Positions 89 to 9,240 of a stretch of 64,000 nucleotides of DNA are shown in pieces. Location of the stretch: contig NZ_NEVL01000004.1 in the NCBI RefSeq assembly GCF_002261335.1, positions 682,001-746,000 of the forward strand, written 5' to 3'. A program made the translations under genes and the position numbers. How positions within the stretch are numbered: position 1 is the stretch's first letter; each line of letters opens with the position of its first letter. Under the pieces are notes generated by a model. That model did no database searches and was not told the origin of the DNA. It saw nothing but the letters and a program-made list of their open reading frames with translations. Source of the DNA: Bordetella genomosp. 1. GTDB taxonomy: Bacteria; Pseudomonadota; Gammaproteobacteria; Burkholderiales; Burkholderiaceae_B.

Positions 89-1189
89 TTACTTGCCCGC
101 GGCGGCGCGCCACTGCTTGATGAATTCCAGGCGCTTGTTCTGCTCGAGGTAGTCGAGCAGGGTCTCATTGACGGGGATCGGCTTGAGCGCGTTGCCCAGC
201 TTCTTGGTCAGGCCGTCGACGTCGTTGTCGCCGTCGATGTCGTCGCGGATCGAGGCCATGTCGGCCTTGTTGGCGACGATGTCCTGGCCCTTCTTGGACA
301 GCAGGTAGTCCATCCAGAGCTTGGCCGCGTTCTTGTTCTTGGCCTTCTTGCTGATGAAGGCCACGCGCGACAGCACCAGCGTGTAGTCGGTGGGGTACGA
401 CACGCCCAGCGACGGATCGGTCTTGGCCCGCGTCTCGGCATAGGAGCCGAGGATGTTGTAGCCGACGAGGTTCTCGCCGGACGACACGCGTTCCATCATG
501 GTGCCGGTGGACGACTGCACGATCAGGCCGCCCTTCGCGGTGTCGCGCAGCGTGTCGAAGTAGTGGGCGTCGTTGGCCTTGTCCTGCACCGCCAGCATGA
601 AGCCCACGGCCGACTTCTCGATGTCGTAGGTCGTGACCTTGTTCTTGAACTTGTCGGGCTGGCTCGCGATCAGCTTGGCCAGCGCGGTGTGCGTGGTCGG
701 CACCTCGTTCTGCGGGATCAGGCGCTTGTTGTAGATGAAGACGGCCGGCTCGTAGGTGGTGCCGTAGGCCGAGTCTTTCCAGACCGCCCACTTCGGCAGC
801 TTGTCGGCTTCGGGCGAACGGTATTGCAGCGCGTAATCCACGGCGAGCTTGAGCGCCGAGTCCATCGACGAGCTCCACACCACGTCGCCGCTGCCGCTGC
901 CCGAGGCCTGTTCGCTGATGTAGCGGTTGTACAGCTCGGTGCTGTTCATGTCGTTGTATTCCACCTTCACGCCCGGGAACGCGGCCTCGAAGCCGGCGAT
1001 GATCGGGCCCGCGGCCTTGGTGTCGGTGGTGGAATAGATCACGACCTTGCCCTCTTTCTTGGCGCCGTCGATGATCTTCTGATAATCGGCCGGATAGCCT
1101 TCGGGGGCTTGCTGCGCGAGCGCCGCGCCGGACGCGAAGGTGGTCAGGGCGGCCGTCAGGGCGGCGGCCAGGCAGGACTTGGCGAACAT
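89..1189 (-). CDS. ABC-type extracellular solute-binding protein (iron/PgtC-like family)
   Basis: Predicted periplasmic binding protein of about 366 residues. The ATG at 1189 is preferred over upstream in-frame ATGs because GGAGAAGACAGCC lies directly before it, and the protein then opens with a typical Sec signal peptide ending ALA-QQ. The mature part has the fold-type motifs of Fe3+/phosphoglycerate-regulatory (PgtC-like) binding proteins: WAVWKD, YEPAVFIYN, TTYDI and GYNILGSYA. It lies 120 bp downstream of a kinase whose C-terminal domain has the same motifs in the same order, so the two probably sense or bind related ligands. No permease or ATPase genes adjoin it inside the window. Its ligand cannot be read from sequence. 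Confidence 0.85.
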   Translation of the reverse strand: MFAKSCLAAALTAALTTFASGAALAQQAPEGYPADYQKIIDGAKKEGKVVIYSTTDTKAAGPIIAGFEAAFPGVKVEYNDMNSTELYNRYISEQASGSGSGDVVWSSSMDSALKLAVDYALQYRSPEADKLPKWAVWKDSAYGTTYEPAVFIYNKRLIPQNEVPTTHTALAKLIASQPDKFKNKVTTYDIEKSAVGFMLAVQDKANDAHYFDTLRDTAKGGLIVQSSTGTMMERVSSGENLVGYNILGSYAETRAKTDPSLGVSYPTDYTLVLSRVAFISKKAKNKNAAKLWMDYLLSKKGQDIVANKADMASIRDDIDGDNDVDGLTKKLGNALKPIPVNETLLDYLEQNKRLEFIKQWRAAAGK

Positions 1190-1310
1190 GGCTGTCTTCT
1201 CCATTGGAATGATGAAACTGGCTCTATGACCAGCCTGCGAGCATCTTAGGAGTCGCACTCTGTCGGCGTCCTGTCAGCAGCGCCGCCGCATTCCTGGGAC
1301 AAACCCTAGC

Positions 1311-3782
1311 CTAGCGCCGCGCCTCCGGCGTGTCCGTGACCAGCCGCATCCAGTTCTGCACGAAGCGCGATTGACGCTGTTGGTCGAGTCCGACGAGCAG
1401 CGCCGGGCTCAGTACCACGGGCTGCACGATGCCGCGCGTGCGCGCCTGCAGCGCATCGGCGGTCCAGGGCCCCTCGGTGCCCTGCACCAGCGCGCCCAGC
1501 GCGGCGTGGCTCGCCGCCACCCGCTGGCCGGCCGGCGACACCAGCCAGTCGACCAGGTTGCGCGCGAGGTCGGGATTGGGCGCGCGGCGCGCGATCAGCG
1601 CCGAGCGCGCCAGCACCAGCATGTAGTCCTGCGGCAGCACCACGCCGATCTGCGCGCCCGCGGCCTGGCGCGCCAGCGCATACGAGCCCAGCAGGTTGTA
1701 GCCGAGGTCGAGCTCGCCGCGCTCGATCGCGCCCAGCAGCTCGCCGCTGGTGGCGGCCAGCCGCACGCCGACCTGCCCCAGCGCGTTGGCCAGGCCCCAG
1801 AAGTTCGACGACACCAGCTCGTCCTGCTCGGCCAGCACATAGCCCACGTTGCTCGCCGCGATGTCGTAGGTGCCGACGCGGCCGCGCAGGCTGGCACCCT
1901 CGCGCTCGAGCAGGCGCAGCAGCGCCTGGCGCGAGCGCGGCACCGTGTCTTCGTTGAAGCGGCGCGGGTTGTAGACGATCACCGCGGGCTCGAAGGTGAA
2001 GCCGTAGACCTCGTCGCGCCACACCGCCCACGACGGCAGCGTGCGCGCGTACGGCGAGGCATGGCTCATGGCGTAGCCGTCGTTGGCCAGCCGCACCTGC
2101 AGGTCCGGCGCGGAGCTGATCAGCACGTCCACGTCCGCAAGCTCGCCCGCGATGGTGGCCTCGTAGAGCTCGCGGCTGCCCATCTCGCGGTAGACCACGG
2201 TCACGTCGGGCCGCTCCTGCTGGAAGCCGGCGATCAGCGGCGCGAACACCGGCGTGTCGGTCGGGCCCGCCACGGTCAGCACGCGGCTCGACGGCCGCGG
2301 CGCGGGATAGCGGCTCTCGACGTAGCGTTCGGCCGCGGGCGCCGGCGCGGGCAGCAGGCCGCCCAGCAGCACCGCCGCGAGCAGCCAGCCCGCCAGCCGC
2401 CGGCCCGCACGCGGCCGCGCCAGGGGCAGCACGATGCGCGCCATCAGGCCGCCACCGGGCCGGTCCTGCAGCCAGAGCGAGCCGCCGTGCGCCTGCGCCA
2501 CCGAGCGCACGATCGCCAGGCCCAGCCCCGAGCCCGGCAGGCCGCTGGCGCCGCGCTCGAAGCGCTGCTGCACGCGTTCCTTGTCGGCATCCTCGATGCC
2601 GGGGCCGCGATCCGACACGGTGAGCGCGAGCCGATAGCCCGCCACCGGCGTCACCTGGATGTCCACCTGCGACGCCGGCGCGTAGCGCAGCGCGTTGTCG
2701 ACCAGGTTGCGCAGCATCTCGCGCAGCGCCACGCGATCGCCCAGCACCCGGGCGCGGCGCAGCTCCGGCGCGATCGCGATGCGCAGCCGGCGCGCGTCCA
2801 GCGGGCCGATGCGCCGGCGGGTCTCGTTGACGGTCTCGGCCACGCCCACCGCGGTGCGCTCGCCGCGCCCGAGCCGGTGCGCGATGGTGGCATCCATCAG
2901 CAGCTGGTTGATGAGCTGGCTCGCCTGCGTGGCGTTCTGGTGGATGCGGTCGACGCGCTCGCGCAGGCGTTCGGGGTCGCGCTCCTCGAGCGCCACTTCC
3001 GCTTGCGCGCGCAACGATGCCAGCGGCGTGCGAACCTGGTGGGCCGAGTCGGCCACCAGCGTGTTGAGGCTGTCCATCATGGTCGCCAACCTGCGCATGA
3101 ATGCATTGAGGGCCTCGGCCAGGCGCCGCACCTCGTTGGGCACGGGCGCACGCAGGGGCGCGAGGTCGTCGGGTTCGCGGTGGCGCAGCTCGCGCTCCAC
3201 CGCGGCCAGCGGCGCGAAGGCGCGCTGGATGCCGAACCACAGCAGGGCCAGCGCCACGCCCACCACCACCAGCAGCGGCCACAGGCTGCGGTTGAGGATC
3301 TCGGCGGCGAGCGCCTGGCGCGATCCCAGCGTCTCGGCCACGCGCACCGTCACCCAGCCCGCATGCTGGCTGGCCGACACCAGCCGCCCCACCGTCGCCA
3401 CCCGCACCGGCTCGTCGTGATACTCGCCATACGAGAACTGCGGCACGGCGGAATCGGCCAGCGGCAGGCCGGGCGCGAGGTCGGCATAGCCCGTGATCGC
3501 GCGGCCGCTGCTGTTGAGCGCCTGATAGAACACCCGCTCGCTGCCCGGCAGCATGGCCAGCGAAGAAAACGGCGGCTCCACCGTCACGCCCGCGTCGTCG
3601 ATCTGCACCGAGCCCGCGATGGTGAGCGCGGAGGCCGCCAGCAGCCGGTCGAAGGCCTGTTCCGAGGCGCGATGGGCGTAGGCGCGCAGGAAGAAGAACA
3701 GCGCGATCGAGGCACAGGCCAGCGCCACCAGCGCGAGCACGAACACGCGCCGCCGGATCGAGAATCCGTCAGTCCGCCTCAT
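1311..3782 (-). CDS. Sensor histidine kinase fused to a C-terminal solute-binding domain
   Basis: An 823-residue fusion. Residues 1-450 are a TctE-like sensor kinase: membrane segment 14-33, periplasmic loop, second membrane segment 167-186, HAMP, HisKA with the phospho-acceptor H248 in AHQVRTPLASLR, and HATPase with N363, DRGPGI (391-396) and GSGLGLAI (417-424). Residues 463-483 form a further hydrophobic stretch that ends APAPAA like a signal sequence. Residues 500-823 are a periplasmic-binding-protein domain homologous to the gene at 89-1189 (WAVWRD, FEPAVIVYN, GTYDI, GYNLLGSYA). Its start overlaps the response regulator by 14 bp, so the pair is co-translated. The kinase part is sure; whether the binding domain stays tethered or is cleaved off is unknown. 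Confidence 0.9.
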   Translation of the reverse strand: MRRTDGFSIRRRVFVLALVALACASIALFFFLRAYAHRASEQAFDRLLAASALTIAGSVQIDDAGVTVEPPFSSLAMLPGSERVFYQALNSSGRAITGYADLAPGLPLADSAVPQFSYGEYHDEPVRVATVGRLVSASQHAGWVTVRVAETLGSRQALAAEILNRSLWPLLVVVGVALALLWFGIQRAFAPLAAVERELRHREPDDLAPLRAPVPNEVRRLAEALNAFMRRLATMMDSLNTLVADSAHQVRTPLASLRAQAEVALEERDPERLRERVDRIHQNATQASQLINQLLMDATIAHRLGRGERTAVGVAETVNETRRRIGPLDARRLRIAIAPELRRARVLGDRVALREMLRNLVDNALRYAPASQVDIQVTPVAGYRLALTVSDRGPGIEDADKERVQQRFERGASGLPGSGLGLAIVRSVAQAHGGSLWLQDRPGGGLMARIVLPLARPRAGRRLAGWLLAAVLLGGLLPAPAPAAERYVESRYPAPRPSSRVLTVAGPTDTPVFAPLIAGFQQERPDVTVVYREMGSRELYEATIAGELADVDVLISSAPDLQVRLANDGYAMSHASPYARTLPSWAVWRDEVYGFTFEPAVIVYNPRRFNEDTVPRSRQALLRLLEREGASLRGRVGTYDIAASNVGYVLAEQDELVSSNFWGLANALGQVGVRLAATSGELLGAIERGELDLGYNLLGSYALARQAAGAQIGVVLPQDYMLVLARSALIARRAPNPDLARNLVDWLVSPAGQRVAASHAALGALVQGTEGPWTADALQARTRGIVQPVVLSPALLVGLDQQRQSRFVQNWMRLVTDTPEARR

Positions 3783-4440
3783 CGAGTCGCGCCTGGTAAC
3801 CCACGCCGCGCACCGTCACGATGTCGACCGACGCGCCCGCCAGCTTCTTGCGCAGGCGCGAGATCAGCAGCTCCAGTGCGTTGAGCGACACGTCGTCGGC
3901 GTCGAACAGTTGCGCCATCAACCGTTCCTTGGCCACGGTCTGGCCCTGCCGCGCCAGCAGGATCTCGAGCAGGCGGAACTCGCGCCGGCCCAGCTCGAGC
4001 GCCGTGCCGTCGAGCGCGACGCTGCGGTTGGCGGCGTCCAGCGTCAGGTTGCCGAACGCCACCGTGCTGGAGGTCTGGCCCGAGGGGCGGCGCATCAGCG
4101 CGCGCAGCCGCGCCTCGAGTTCGCGCAGGTCGAACGGCTTGACCAGGTAATCGTCGGCGCCCAGGTCGAGCATGTCGACCTTGTCCTCGATCTCGGCACG
4201 CGCCGTCATGACCAGCACCGGCGACTCCAGGCCGCCGCCGCGCAGCTCGCGCAGCACGGCAAAGCCATCCTTGGCCGGCAGATTGATGTCGAGCACCAGC
4301 GCGTCCCAGGGCTCGGCGCGGCCCCATTGCACCGCGGCCGCGCCGTCGCGCACCCATTGCACGCTGTGGCCGGCATTGCGCAGCTTGCTCTCCACGGCAT
4401 CACCCAGGTCGGCGTTGTCCTCGACCAGCAGAATGCGCAT
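3769..4440 (-). CDS. OmpR/PhoB-family response regulator (TctD-like)
   Basis: A 223-residue two-component regulator. The start at 4440 is chosen because GAGGGGAGACGAGAC precedes it and the protein then begins MRILLVEDNADLG, the canonical receiver start. The receiver domain has the acidic ED pair at 7-8 and phospho-acceptor D51 in LVLDINLP. The C-terminal winged helix (about 125-220) carries the LGRREFRLLEILL and ISRLRKKL segments of OmpR-type DNA-binding domains. The gene heads the operon with the kinase-binding-protein fusion and the free binding protein. By analogy with TctDE or Pgt systems it would control a solute-uptake function, but no transporter target is visible nearby. Confidence 0.92.
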   Translation of the reverse strand: MRILLVEDNADLGDAVESKLRNAGHSVQWVRDGAAAVQWGRAEPWDALVLDINLPAKDGFAVLRELRGGGLESPVLVMTARAEIEDKVDMLDLGADDYLVKPFDLRELEARLRALMRRPSGQTSSTVAFGNLTLDAANRSVALDGTALELGRREFRLLEILLARQGQTVAKERLMAQLFDADDVSLNALELLISRLRKKLAGASVDIVTVRGVGYQARLDEAD

Positions 4441-4538
4441 GTCTCGTCTCCCCTCTGCATTTTTTTCGAGGTTGTGTGCGAGGGAGTGTAGCCCGCGGGG
4501 GCTTTCAGATGGCATTCATCGCGCGCGGGCGGGAGGCC

Positions 4539-4904
4539 TCACAGGAAGCGCATCGCGCCGGCCTCGATCCAGGGCAGGCCCAGGCCCGCCGCCGTCGCGC
4601 ACAGGGCCAACCCACCGAGCCGGCGCGGCGCCAGGCTGAGCGTCAGCGCCGCCAGCAGCGCGCCGCACGACAGCATGCCGGCCCAGACCACGGTCGCGAC
4701 CGCCGCCCCCCAGGGTTGCAGGCAGGCGGCCAGTGCCGCGGCCGCCAGCAGCAGCGCGCACAGGCGCAGCGCGCGGCGCAGGCGCGGCGGCACGGCTTCG
4801 CTGCCGGTGGCCTGCTCGAAATGGCGGTCCATGGCCAGCGCGAGGCAGGCGCAGGCCGCGTAGAGCAGCGCCAGGGCGGCCAGCGCCGCGGTGGTCGTGC
4901 TCAT
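4539..4904 (-). CDS. DUF3325 family small membrane protein
   Basis: A 121-residue, strongly hydrophobic protein starting MSTTTAALAALALLYAACA, with about four predicted membrane segments. The start at 4904 overlaps the stop of the PepSY protein as ATGA, so the two are translationally coupled. DUF3325 proteins are commonly the last gene behind a TonB siderophore receptor and a PepSY membrane protein, which is the arrangement here. The biochemical role is not established; a part in inner-membrane handling of iron or siderophore is an inference from the neighbours. A longer same-frame reading frame running upstream to 6716 is only a GC-rich shadow of the PepSY gene. Confidence 0.8.
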   Translation of the reverse strand: MSTTTAALAALALLYAACACLALAMDRHFEQATGSEAVPPRLRRALRLCALLLAAAALAACLQPWGAAVATVVWAGMLSCGALLAALTLSLAPRRLGGLALCATAAGLGLPWIEAGAMRFL

Positions 4905-6760
4905 GCCGGCGCCATCAGCCAGGCCAGCGGCGCCAGCACGGCCAGCGCCAGCAGCAGCCCGCACCAGGCGCGCCGCGCGGCGAACACCCACAGCGCGGCC
5001 ACCGCGTAGAACAGGAAGGCCAGCAGGCTGGCGGCGACCACGCCCAGTGCCGGGCGGGCGAGGCCGGTGTCCGCCAGTAGGCGGGCCAGCACGGCGGCGG
5101 CCGACGCCGCCAACGCGTAGCCGCCCGCGACGGCGCAGACCACGCGCCCCAGCACGCGCCAGCGGTGACCGGCCGGTGTTGCCACGCCGCGCAGGCGCCA
5201 GGCCAGCACCGCAAACAGCCCGCCGAACCCGACCACGGTGGTCTCCACCAGCGCCGGCTGCCAGTCGCCCTGGCGCGCATAGCCGAGCAGATGCTGGCCG
5301 GTGCTCAGCGCGTTGCTCAATGGCAGCGCCAGGCACAGCAGCGCGGCGCAGGCGAACTGCTCGACCCAGGCGCGCTGCGGCGGCCGCAGGCAGGCATGCA
5401 GCAGGCTCGCGAGCCACACCGCGAAAAAGGCCTGGATCTCCCAGGCGTCGCGGCCCGGCTGCGCGGCCGGGATCAGGCGGTTGGCATGGAAGTACGCGAT
5501 ACAGGCCACGCAGGCGCCGGCGATGGCCGCCACGTTGAGCGATTCGGCCACGCGGTAGAACGCCGGCGTCGCCGCGCCGAACTCCGACTCGCCGCGGTTG
5601 CGGCGCTTGAGCATGAAGAGCACCACGCCGGAGGCCATCATCAGCGCGCCCGCCAGGCCCAGGACGAAGTACAGCCAGCGCACCGTCCAGCCGCCGAACG
5701 ACGCCACGTGCAGCCGTTCCATGACCTCGTGCGCGGCATCCGCCGGCTGGCGTCCGGCCGCGCGATGCACGGCGATGTAGGCGCCGCTGGCGCCGTCGAA
5801 CACGGCCCGGCCGGCCGGGCTGGAGAGATCGCGGATCGCGGCCTCGGGATCCGGCCGCGCATAGACGCTGACGCGCGCCCCGGGCTGTCCGGGGCGCTCG
5901 ACCATGACCATGCGCGCGGGGCTGCTTAGCTCGCGCTGCGCGGCCTGCACCAGCGCGTCGAGCTGGCGGTGCACGGGCCGGTCCGCCGCGAGCGCGGGCG
6001 CCGCGGGCAACACCTGCGTCCGGTCGGCGCCGGCCGCGTCGGCCTGCTCGGCCTGCCAACGCGCCATGCCCTGCTCGCCATACAGCGCATGCAGCGGCAG
6101 CGGCATGTAGCTCACGTAGAAGATCGCCAGGCCGGTGTAGGCGATCATCAGCTGGAACGGCAGCGTGAGCACGGCGGACGCGTTGTGGCCGTCGAGCCAG
6201 GCGCGCTGGCCACGACCGGGCCGGAAGGTGAAGAAATCCTTGAAGATGCGCTTGTGCACCACCACGCCGGAGAGCAGCGCCACCAGCATGCCGACCGTCA
6301 GCCAGCCCACCAGCCAGAAACCGGTGGCGCCGGCATGCAGCGTGTAGTGCAGCGTCATGAAGTGGCGCCCGCCCTCGGTCTTGCGGCCCCACGGCTGCGG
6401 CAGCACGGCGCCGTTGCGGGGATCCAGCGCGGCCTCGTGCGTGACGCCGGCGGGGGTGCGCCAGACGGCCCGCAGCGCCTGGCCGGGCTGCTCGGGCAGC
6501 TCGATGCGCCAGAAGCGCGCTCCCGTCCCCTGCGCCTCGAGCAGCGCGACGGCGGCGTCCAGCGCGCGCGCCAGCGCCGCGGCCGGGTCCGCCACCGTGG
6601 CCGCGGGCGGCAGCGCGGGCTCGGCCGTCATCCAGCGCGAGATCGGCGCGCGGAACACGCTGATGCTGCCCGCCAGGAAGATCATGCACAGCAGCCAGCC
6701 GCACACCAGTCCGCACCAGGTGTGCAGCCAGCTCATGCGCTGGCGCAGGCCCGCCTGCAT
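4901..6760 (-). CDS. PepSY-associated TM protein (iron-regulated, PiuB-like)
   Basis: About 619 residues, starting MQAGLRQRMSWLHTWCGLV at 6760, two bases after the stop of the TonB receptor. The opening segment with the WLHTW..L motif and membrane helix is typical of PepSY-TM family proteins, and several more helices follow (near HFMTLHYTLHAG, the segment before WLDGHNASAVL, and the C-terminal third). Conserved histidines in HTW, LHY and DGH are candidate heme or metal ligands; some family members are ferric-siderophore reductases. The location between a siderophore receptor and DUF3325 supports a role in inner-membrane release or reduction of siderophore iron. Upstream in-frame sequence within the receptor gene is not coding. 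Confidence 0.85.
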   Translation of the reverse strand: MQAGLRQRMSWLHTWCGLVCGWLLCMIFLAGSISVFRAPISRWMTAEPALPPAATVADPAAALARALDAAVALLEAQGTGARFWRIELPEQPGQALRAVWRTPAGVTHEAALDPRNGAVLPQPWGRKTEGGRHFMTLHYTLHAGATGFWLVGWLTVGMLVALLSGVVVHKRIFKDFFTFRPGRGQRAWLDGHNASAVLTLPFQLMIAYTGLAIFYVSYMPLPLHALYGEQGMARWQAEQADAAGADRTQVLPAAPALAADRPVHRQLDALVQAAQRELSSPARMVMVERPGQPGARVSVYARPDPEAAIRDLSSPAGRAVFDGASGAYIAVHRAAGRQPADAAHEVMERLHVASFGGWTVRWLYFVLGLAGALMMASGVVLFMLKRRNRGESEFGAATPAFYRVAESLNVAAIAGACVACIAYFHANRLIPAAQPGRDAWEIQAFFAVWLASLLHACLRPPQRAWVEQFACAALLCLALPLSNALSTGQHLLGYARQGDWQPALVETTVVGFGGLFAVLAWRLRGVATPAGHRWRVLGRVVCAVAGGYALAASAAAVLARLLADTGLARPALGVVAASLLAFLFYAVAALWVFAARRAWCGLLLALAVLAPLAWLMAPA

Positions 6761-6762
6761 CG

Positions 6763-9240
6763 TCAGAACGTGCCGCGCAGGGTCAGCATGGCATTGCGGG
6801 GATCGCCGTAATGGATGCCGTTGACCATGTTGCCCACCGCGCTGTAGTAGGTTTTGTCGAAGATGTTGTTGACGTTGAGCGAGGCGGCCCAGTTGCGGTT
6901 GATCTGGTACCTGGCGTACGCGTTCCAGACCGCGCGGCCGCTCGCCTTCGCCTCCAGTTCGCCGATCTGGCGCGACTGGCCGCTCTGCACGTTGACGCCG
7001 CCGCCCACGGTGAAGGCGCTCAGGTCGCCGGGCAGCTGATAGGTGGTCCAGAGGCGGAAGATGTGCTTGGGCGCGTACCAGGCGAAGGCCTTGCCCTCGC
7101 TGTCCTGGTCCTTCAGGTACTTGGTGGTGTTGAAGGTATAGCCGGCATACAGATTCCAGCCGCGCGTGAGCTCGCCGCTGATCTCGGCGTCGAAGCCCTG
7201 GCTGCGCACCTTGCCGCCGTCGGTGTAGCAGTAGTAGTCGGCGGCGCAGGTCGGGCTGCTGTTGAAGTCGACCTGGGCGCGGTTGCTCTGGTCGATGCGG
7301 AACAGCGCGAAGGCCGTGTTGATGCGGCCGTCGAGCAGCTCGCCCTTGAGTCCCAGCTCGTAGTTCTCGCCGACCACGGGCTTGAGATTCTGGCCCGCCG
7401 CGTTCACGTTGCTCTGCGGCTGGAAGATGTCGGTGTAGCTGAAGTAGGTGGTCCACTGCGGCGTCAGGTCGAGCACCAGCCCGGCGTAGGGCGTGAAGTG
7501 CGTGTTCTCCTGCACCGTCTGCCCGCTCACCTTCACGCCCGCCGTCGTGGTGTCGGTATCCCAGTAGCGGCTCGAGCGGCTGAAGCGCCCGCCCAGCACC
7601 AGCTTGAGCGGATCGGCCAGCTGCAGGCGCGTGGCGCCATAGAAACCGAGCTCGCGGGCCGAGCCGATGCGCATCTCGTCGGTGCCGGCGTGCATCGCGG
7701 CGCCGACGGGCTCGGGCAGGTCCGGGTCGAAGTTGAACGCATTGAAGTTCGCGTAATTGACCAGATACGAGTAGGTGGTGTCGATCCGGTTGTGCGAGTA
7801 GGTGGTGCCCAGCACGATCTCGTGCGTGCGGCCAAACGCCTGCACCTTGCCCAGCAGGTTCGCATCCAGGCCCGAGGTGTCGATGTCGGCCACCGTCTTG
7901 GCCACGTTGACCTGCGCCATGTTGGTCACCGGGTTCACCGCGCGGCTCGAGGTGGTGTACTTCAGGTACTGCTTTTCCTTGACGTAGGCGCCGGTCACCT
8001 TGACGCGCCAGTCGTCGTTGAAGGCGTGGGTGAAGTCGGCATAGAAGCCGTCGTTGGTGGTTTCCTGGCGGTTCCAGTTGGCGGCGAAGCTGGTGGAGCG
8101 CTTGAAGCCCACCTCCTCGCCGTTGCTGTAGCGCGGCAGGCCCGACACCGAGGGGCGGCCGCGCAGGTCTTCGTGGCTGTAGCCCAGGTTGAGCTGCGTG
8201 CGCGGCGAGAAGTCGTATTCCAGCGTGCCGTAGAAGGTGGTGTTCTTGAAGTTGACGCGATCGACGAACGAATGGACGTCCTGGCGGTCGATCAGCGCGC
8301 GGCCGCGCAGGCTGCCGTCCTCGTTCAGCACGCCGCTGCCGTCGAGCTGCACGCCGTAGCGGTCCCAGCTGCCGGCCTTGGTCTCGACCATGAAGTGGTC
8401 TTCGGCCAGCGGCCGCTTGCGCACCAGGTTCACCGCGCCGCCGGGCGAGCCCGAGCCCTGCAGCAGGCCGGCCGCGCCCCGCAGCACTTCCACGCGGTCA
8501 TACATGGCGGTGCCGCCGGAATAGTTGTTTGCGCGACCATAGAAGCCGCGCTCGAGCGGCACGCCGTCGTACTGGATCACCGAGTTCTCGAACCCGCGCG
8601 AATAGATGTACTTGCCGCCCTGCGGGCTCTGCTGCAGGGTCACGCCGGTGGTGTTCTCGAGCGCGTCGTAGACCGAGGCGAGGTTCTGCTCGTCGAGGCG
8701 CTGCCGCGTCACGACGCTGATCGACTGCGGAATCTCGCGCAGGCGCTGTTCGCCCTTGCCGATCGTGGCAGACGCGGTGGTGTACGAGCCGGTGCCCTCG
8801 GTCACGAGGCGATATTCCTGTCCGGTCACCGTCACCGGCTCGAGCATGGCGGTGCCGCCCGCGGGCAGCCTGCGCACGGCGAAACCGCCGCTGGCCAGGC
8901 GCGCGCCCTCGAAGCCGGTGCCGGCCAGCAGCGCGGCGAGGCCGCGGCTGGCGCTCCAGTTGCCCTTCAGGCCCGCCGTGCGCAGGCCTTCGACCTGCCC
9001 CGCGTCGAACGACACGTTCACGCCCGCGGCGCGGCCGAACTGGTTGAGCGCCTGGTCGAGCGGGCCGGCCTCGATGGCAAACGCATGTTCCGCTTCCTGC
9101 GGCGCGACGGCGGCCTGCGCCTGGGCGGCGGGCACATACCCGACGAGGGCGGCGCCGCAGAGCACGCCGGAGAGGGCCGCAGACAGTGCGGTGGGAACGG
9201 GCGCGCGGCGCGCCGACACACGAGGACGAGCGAGGGTCAT
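6763..9240 (-). CDS. TonB-dependent siderophore receptor with STN signalling domain
   Basis: An 825-residue outer-membrane receptor. A signal peptide covers residues 1-42. An STN (secretin/TonB N-terminal) domain covers about 52-123 (FAIEAGPLDQALNQFGRAAG), which is the signalling module of FecA/FpvA-type transducers. The plug starts about 165 (REIPQSISVVTRQRL) and the beta-barrel runs to a C-terminal phenylalanine in MLTLRGTF. The STN domain fits the sigma factor and FecR-like anti-sigma just upstream, so ligand binding should induce its own transcription. The arrangement resembles the Bordetella BfrZ type of xenosiderophore system, but the siderophore cannot be told from sequence. The downstream PepSY and DUF3325 genes are probably co-transcribed. 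Confidence 0.93.
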   Translation of the reverse strand: MTLARPRVSARRAPVPTALSAALSGVLCGAALVGYVPAAQAQAAVAPQEAEHAFAIEAGPLDQALNQFGRAAGVNVSFDAGQVEGLRTAGLKGNWSASRGLAALLAGTGFEGARLASGGFAVRRLPAGGTAMLEPVTVTGQEYRLVTEGTGSYTTASATIGKGEQRLREIPQSISVVTRQRLDEQNLASVYDALENTTGVTLQQSPQGGKYIYSRGFENSVIQYDGVPLERGFYGRANNYSGGTAMYDRVEVLRGAAGLLQGSGSPGGAVNLVRKRPLAEDHFMVETKAGSWDRYGVQLDGSGVLNEDGSLRGRALIDRQDVHSFVDRVNFKNTTFYGTLEYDFSPRTQLNLGYSHEDLRGRPSVSGLPRYSNGEEVGFKRSTSFAANWNRQETTNDGFYADFTHAFNDDWRVKVTGAYVKEKQYLKYTTSSRAVNPVTNMAQVNVAKTVADIDTSGLDANLLGKVQAFGRTHEIVLGTTYSHNRIDTTYSYLVNYANFNAFNFDPDLPEPVGAAMHAGTDEMRIGSARELGFYGATRLQLADPLKLVLGGRFSRSSRYWDTDTTTAGVKVSGQTVQENTHFTPYAGLVLDLTPQWTTYFSYTDIFQPQSNVNAAGQNLKPVVGENYELGLKGELLDGRINTAFALFRIDQSNRAQVDFNSSPTCAADYYCYTDGGKVRSQGFDAEISGELTRGWNLYAGYTFNTTKYLKDQDSEGKAFAWYAPKHIFRLWTTYQLPGDLSAFTVGGGVNVQSGQSRQIGELEAKASGRAVWNAYARYQINRNWAASLNVNNIFDKTYYSAVGNMVNGIHYGDPRNAMLTLRGTF

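Follow-up and report, generated by a model that had tools for sequence, protein, structure and literature searches.

A histidine kinase and a periplasmic-binding protein domain encoded in one frame in Bordetella and related genera: a putative nutrient sensor

Introduction

Can a sensor kinase and the periplasmic binding protein (SBP) that informs it be made as one chain? The question is raised by a gene in the window analysed here, a stretch of 64,000 nucleotides from Bordetella genomosp. 1, in which a complete SBP is encoded behind a complete kinase. Sensor kinases with a separate SBP are already known, and the matching of SBP amount and place to the kinase is hard to test. The predicted topology of the fused protein is also unusual for a kinase, with the catalytic core between two membrane-crossing parts and the periplasmic receptor at the C terminus.

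Gene organization and domain order

The coordinates given for the gene in a preliminary description, 1311..3782, are correct; the strand is minus, and a long open frame is present there on the plus strand too. The features of the gene are as follows.

1311..3782, minus strand, fused sensor histidine kinase–SBP gene, 823 codons, reading from 3782 to 1311
3297..3716, minus strand, 2CSK_N match, residues 23-162, part of TM1 and periplasmic sensor domain (Pfam PF08521, E 2.3e-32)
3222..3290, minus strand, TM2, about residues 165-187 (from hydrophobicity; boundaries approximate, set by eye)
2883..3068, minus strand, HisKA dimerisation domain, residues 239-300, carrying H248 (Pfam, E 1.8e-12)
2418..2741, minus strand, HATPase_c, residues 348-455, with N363, D391 and GSGLGLAI at 417-424 (Pfam, E 8.7e-25)
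2331..2396, minus strand, third hydrophobic segment and AxA-type site, residues 463-484, candidate cut after A483
1338..2279, minus strand, SBP domain of MctA/FbpA type, about residues 502-815 (Pfam and structure-chain matches)

Pfam matches confirm the proposed single frame of 823 residues with a complete kinase (H248, N363, GSGLGLAI) and a complete SBP, of which residues 502-758 match SBP_bac_11 (E 2e-18). The order along the chain is TM1, 2CSK_N, TM2, HisKA, HATPase, a short linker, a signal-like hydrophobic segment and the MctA/FbpA-type SBP. Residues 188-236, without a Pfam match, are HAMP-like by position and length only. At the seam between kinase and SBP, a few residues rich in arginine are followed by a hydrophobic stretch (about residues 463-477) and by PAPAPAA (478-484), in agreement with the signal-like segment described earlier behind the kinase.

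Occurrence of the fused frame

A stop or frameshift near codon 455, splitting the gene in two, had been named as the observation that would overturn the fusion. Instead, the same open frame is carried by 67 other genomes in 10 genera, and this conservation excludes an assembly error. An assembly or base-calling artefact joining two genes can for practical purposes be dismissed, as nothing was found in its favour and the sole genome with broken frames (G176) points the opposite way.

The suggested search for the same domain order was carried out in the family, where matches at E<=1e-60 were obtained in 78 of 268 genomes and none in the other 190. One open frame with kinase and SBP is present in 68 of the 268 genomes, from 10 of 43 genera (counted by hand, own genome included). 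In 61 of these a single match spans nearly the full protein, and in seven there are two matches inside the single frame. The remaining 10 matching genomes comprise two in which the match ends at a contig edge (G015, G019), one with broken frames (G176) and seven others with the kinase alone, or with kinase and SBP as separate matches, as judged from table rows (sequence inspected for G079 only). In G176 (locus L056), the fused gene and the permease gene both have broken frames, which suggests sequencing errors or decay. Three named loci, from Bordetella pseudohinzii, B. hinzii and B. genomosp. 12, show 85-89% identity.

Matches were found in 8 of 369 genomes of a class sample (E 1e-60), 83 of 398 of a phylum sample (E 1e-50) and four of 399 of an order sample (E 1e-80), all four from the same family; these samples overlap and contain the own genome, and a maximum of two candidates per genome was scored. 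Outside the family, no match in the samples of 369, 398 and 399 genomes had both parts in one frame. The kinase and SBP frames differ in each of the 18 relatives' loci inspected (17 places) and in a further inspected set, other rows being judged from the table. By sequence search within this sample, no other family has the fusion; the search would miss a more diverged form.

The alignment used below covers 46 of the 68 fused genomes, and 22 are not in it. The omitted rows are L012-L014, which duplicate L061-L063 and share their identity values; L001 and L003-L005, which repeat the own gene; and L056, with its broken frames. The homologues are related to each other, and the counts are not independent. 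Eight residues of the H, N and G boxes (H248, N363 and six more) are invariant in 46/46. These boxes, the domain order and an adjoining OmpR/TctD-type regulator are those of a TctE-like (2CSK_N) kinase. Identity is 38% at the junction, compared with 60-82% for TM1, TM2 and the domains.

Unfused relatives and origin of the fusion

In relatives with unfused tandem genes, the SBP gene begins before the stop codon of the kinase gene is complete in all 20 pairs measured. The overlap is 4 nt (ATGA or GTGA) in 16 and longer in L059, L120, L121 and L122; the start codons were chosen by the analyst, and some of the pairs belong to the same genus and are not independent. An identical frame offset is shared by all 13 pairs from one set of 18 loci. 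These 13 are the same-strand pairs of the set, and its other five loci (four places) have opposite-strand genes. Kinase and SBP genes on opposite strands were seen in L068/L075, L072, L109/L114, L118, L125 and L126.

Unfused SBPs next to the kinase carry their own signal-like N terminus. Those of L112 and L123 have paired arginines, presumably twin-arginine-like, so that split and fused forms may not share an export route.

Midpoint-rooted trees were built from 31 kinases and 45 SBPs, with 19 of the 46 aligned fused proteins. The fused proteins form a single clade in the kinase tree (0.996) and in the SBP tree (0.999), and in the former this clade adjoins the unfused pairs L059, L060, L066 and L067. 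The trees fit one old fusion event. The simplest history would be a single small shift of frame where the two genes overlapped, by which the signal peptide of the SBP would have become a hydrophobic segment inside the chain. The separate overlapping genes of the relatives, together with trees that fit one fusion, suggest that the third segment descends from the signal peptide of the SBP.

Signal peptide or membrane helix at the seam

Signal peptidase I substrates have an n-, an h- and a c-region, and positions -3 and -1 are occupied by small residues. For the third segment, the preliminary description proposed either a membrane helix that places the SBP in the periplasm or cleavage at APAPAA. 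Net charge is higher before the segment than after it in 41/46 homologues, a bias that supports the N-in/C-out orientation of the first proposal.

The 19-residue mean hydrophobicity is 1.89 for segment 3, 2.73 for TM1, 2.47 for TM2 and 1.61 for signal peptides, the last taken from 13 of 30 training peptides (the longer ones). The range of these 13 includes 27/46 third segments, 0/46 TM1 and 1/46 TM2.

Sites were scored with a home-made weight matrix from 30 TctC-type signal peptides of the same genome, with sites marked by an A-x-A rule and the threshold set at the 10th percentile of the training set. The median score is 8.2 at the junction, 3.3 in TM1, 3.4 in TM2 and 2.6 in shuffled junctions; the own junction scores 10.5, against a median of 12.7 for the training peptides. 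The threshold is passed by 25/46 junctions, 2/46 TM1, 0/46 TM2 and 13.5% of shuffled junctions. As a control, 41 of 42 distinct signal peptides of the separate SBP (SBP2, below) pass, with a median of 14.3 (the miss is L056), or 51 of 52 loci with copies included. The best-scoring window of the whole chain is at the junction in 34/46 and elsewhere in 12/46; poor junction scorers include L053, L043, L015 and L051.

Two other site measures were discarded. A loose AxA pattern is uninformative, with hits in TM1 (34/46), TM2 (42/46) and the junction (45/46). A first matrix, which placed 0/46 junctions above the lowest training score, had visibly wrong trained sites because it had latched onto the conserved start of mature TctC proteins. 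An internal translation start for the SBP was also rejected, as an ATG, GTG or TTG before the hydrophobic stretch is not conserved and is absent in several homologues.

In score and hydrophobicity, cleavage fits the seam better than a permanent third helix, and signal peptidase is likely to cut there in many members; release of the domain at APAPAA, as proposed, is likely. A literature search for precedents of internal signal cleavage in bacteria returned nothing usable.

The segment might instead stay uncut and anchor the SBP in the membrane for good, as a co-receptor next to the periplasmic domain that the kinase itself has; this is a serious possibility, if clearly the less probable one. 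A useful tie would explain the persistence of the join in 10 genera, and no intact split orthologue was seen in the family (G015, G019 and G176 not being assessable). Site scores are weak in 21/46, the uninterrupted non-polar stretch averages 17.8 residues, and 19/46 segments surpass all 13 compared signal peptides in hydrophobicity. Weighing against a tether are the AxA-like ending in most homologues, a mean hydrophobicity closer to signal peptides than to TM1 or TM2, and linkers after the site that range from short to very long (L055, L057), a variation expected if the tie is not needed.

The short spacer between ATPase domain and segment 3 (median 8 residues) would also suit direct signalling from the SBP to the ATP-binding domain by way of the third helix, which would be a novel means of controlling a kinase. 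We consider this improbable: low conservation of the junction disfavours it, as do spacers of 35 residues in L053 and L058 and long insertions also in L055 and L057, and the unfused relatives are without such a link.

Operon and neighbouring genes

The fused gene lies between two others.

3769..4515 (likely start 4440), minus strand, OmpR/TctD-type response regulator (Response_reg and Trans_reg_C, Pfam)
89..1258 (likely start 1189), minus strand, second, separate SBP (SBP2), adjoining ABC permease and ATPase genes

The regulator gene overlaps the kinase start by 14 bases. Judged by its signal peptide, SBP2 more likely starts at 1189. The homology noted previously between the fused SBP domain and this neighbour holds, at 35% identity over fusion residues 495-813. 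Downstream, beyond the window start, are an ABC permease with two BPD_transp_1 stretches (589 aa) and an ABC ATPase (358 aa). NCBIfam matches of permease and SBP2 are all below curated cut-offs, as are the 25 of 173 listed for the ATPase. Both SBPs match SBP_bac models, and a TctC (PF03401) match is absent in both at E 0.1.

Regulator, kinase–SBP, SBP2, permease and ATPase genes occur together in 18/18 fused loci that reach far enough (L041-L048, L050-L055, L057, L061-L063); this count omits L049 and L058 (contig edge) and L056 (broken frames). In L016, SBP2 matches lie in two overlapping frames, a possible frame break.

Upstream of the operon, at 4901-9240 on the minus strand, there are genes for a TonB-dependent receptor and a PepSY-type membrane protein, named by a look at the sequence; they were rejected as parts of the system, as they are found only in own-genome loci among the loci then compared. 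In the minus-strand region 4441-4540, a block resembling TACACT/TAAACT lies some 40-50 bases ahead of the regulator start; it is a possible -10 element, and a sizeable share of the 27 upstream regions compared have it too. The own genome (e.g. G000:C5:698392-746011) also has 112 TctC (PF03401) matches, several of them within the window, a very large SBP set.

The shared operon, and the homology of the fused SBP to SBP2, would also be expected if the fused SBP mainly fed the ABC importer and merely shared a transcript with the kinase. This seems very unlikely. A separate SBP adjoins the importer genes in all 18 loci, and a homologous SBP gene follows the kinase gene in the 20 tandem pairs of relatives. 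In the SBP tree, the importer SBPs form a separate clade, with SBP2 apart from the fused SBPs; one odd relative, L068, with opposite-strand genes, groups with the importer SBPs instead. A division of labour may be proposed, in which the fused SBP senses and SBP2 serves the importer.

SBP domain and possible ligand

Fusion residues 485-823 match 3c9h (2.2e-66) and the MctA series (7f6e, 8.7e-43), and residues 496-815 align with 7f6e chain residues 18-339. PDB titles in the 7f6 series name MctA a metal-citrate-binding protein. Five mutated MctA positions were taken from mutant chain sequences and D28A from a PDB title, with 7f6u left out; as targets of mutation in MctA, these positions are probably ligand residues. 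Five of the six are kept in the fused SBPs: D509 in 46 of 46, S557 in 43, S644 in 46, S679 as S or T in 42 (S 30, T 12) and Y701 in 43. The sixth, P507, is P in 39, T in 4 and S in 3, and is T in 18/18 importer SBPs.

The largely kept pocket makes a citrate-like anion a fair guess as ligand, and the prevalence of proline at the sixth position means that the ligand may differ from that of MctA. The equivalence proposed earlier with the Salmonella Pgt system stands as an analogy of logic; the residues of the ligand site suggest an MctA-like (metal-citrate) protein and do not single out phosphoglycerate. The predicted model is poor (mean pLDDT 57), and its structural matches agree with a binding-protein fold, no more.

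Proposed mechanism

On balance, the locus probably encodes a three-component nutrient sensor that depends on an SBP, with this sensing SBP synthesised as the C-terminal portion of the kinase that it informs. The internal signal sequence would carry the SBP domain into the periplasm, where signal peptidase probably cuts it free in many species, so that each chain would yield one kinase and one SBP (1:1). The SBP, once bound to a ligand that is probably a citrate-like or metal-citrate anion, would dock on the 2CSK_N domain of the kinase. The kinase would then phosphorylate the OmpR-type regulator, and the importer (SBP2, permease, ATPase) would be induced. Whether the SBP is cut or tied, the former signal peptide should keep the ATPase domain membrane-tied unless the stub is cleared.

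The chances are about even that the protein represents a signalling polyprotein, that is, a membrane kinase with its ATP-binding domain pinned by a signal-peptide stub and a cut-free C-terminal periplasmic sensor at a fixed 1:1 ratio or, should no cut occur, a kinase that is regulated from the C-terminal side. Literature searches found no experiment on the fused protein. For Pseudomonas AgtS/AruS, no evidence is reported that the adjacent SBP activates the kinase (PMC11113362), so an SBP adjoining a kinase need not signal. With the fused form in 10 genera and overlapping gene pairs in relatives, cut, uncut and split versions are directly comparable.

Comparison with known systems

Among the matches listed from open-licence literature, no published kinase–SBP fusion of the same order was recognised. 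The Bradyrhizobium FbcH cytochrome b/c1 precursor is a fused membrane/periplasmic polyprotein that is cut at an internal signal sequence; it differs in being respiratory, not signalling. In BvgS and EvgS, the VFT domains lie N-terminal to the kinase. The tandem N-terminal VFT domains of that group are lacking here, where the one SBP match is C-terminal. In BvgS/EvgS, binding-protein domains likewise share the chain with a histidine kinase, but these are tandem periplasmic VFT domains and not one SBP behind the kinase after a third segment (PMC8534201).

Homology to MctA extends over the SBP domain, with five of six mutated positions kept; MctA differs in being a free SBP, and one mutated position is proline in 39 of 46 fused SBPs. 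In the Bordetella kinase BctE, citrate-loaded BctC is reported to dock on the periplasmic domain (PMC9602780), and a citrate-like ligand is possible for the fusion too. BctE is likened to the fused kinase by description, not by sequence. BctC is a TctC-family SBP of a tripartite transporter, whereas the SBP here is ABC-type, MctA/FbpA-like and on the same chain; neither SBP of the fusion locus matches the TctC family, to which the partner SBPs of Bct/Tct systems belong.

HptASR of Staphylococcus aureus is similar in that a dedicated secreted SBP binds the ligand and signals to a kinase on its periplasmic side, the kinase in turn controlling an uptake gene; ligand-bound HptA switches its contact on HptS (PMC8774646). 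HptA is a separate protein, and kinase and transporter are of other types. CuaDSR of Ruminiclostridium has a sensing-only second SBP beside the importer's own SBP, as in the division of labour proposed above, but in a separate gene and with cellobiose as ligand (PMC10384115).

PgtABC of Salmonella is likened by the description of its parts, not by PgtB/PgtC sequence. It has a sensor PgtC, a kinase PgtB, a regulator PgtA and control of a transporter, with the difference that the genes are separate and a PgtA domain is predicted to contact sigma-54 (PMC11077982). The regulator here is OmpR-type (Response_reg and Trans_reg_C), not sigma-54-type. With the SBP-kinase three-component systems, the present locus shares an SBP, a kinase and a regulator encoded with a transporter; the SBP, separate in those systems, is here part of one frame with the kinase.
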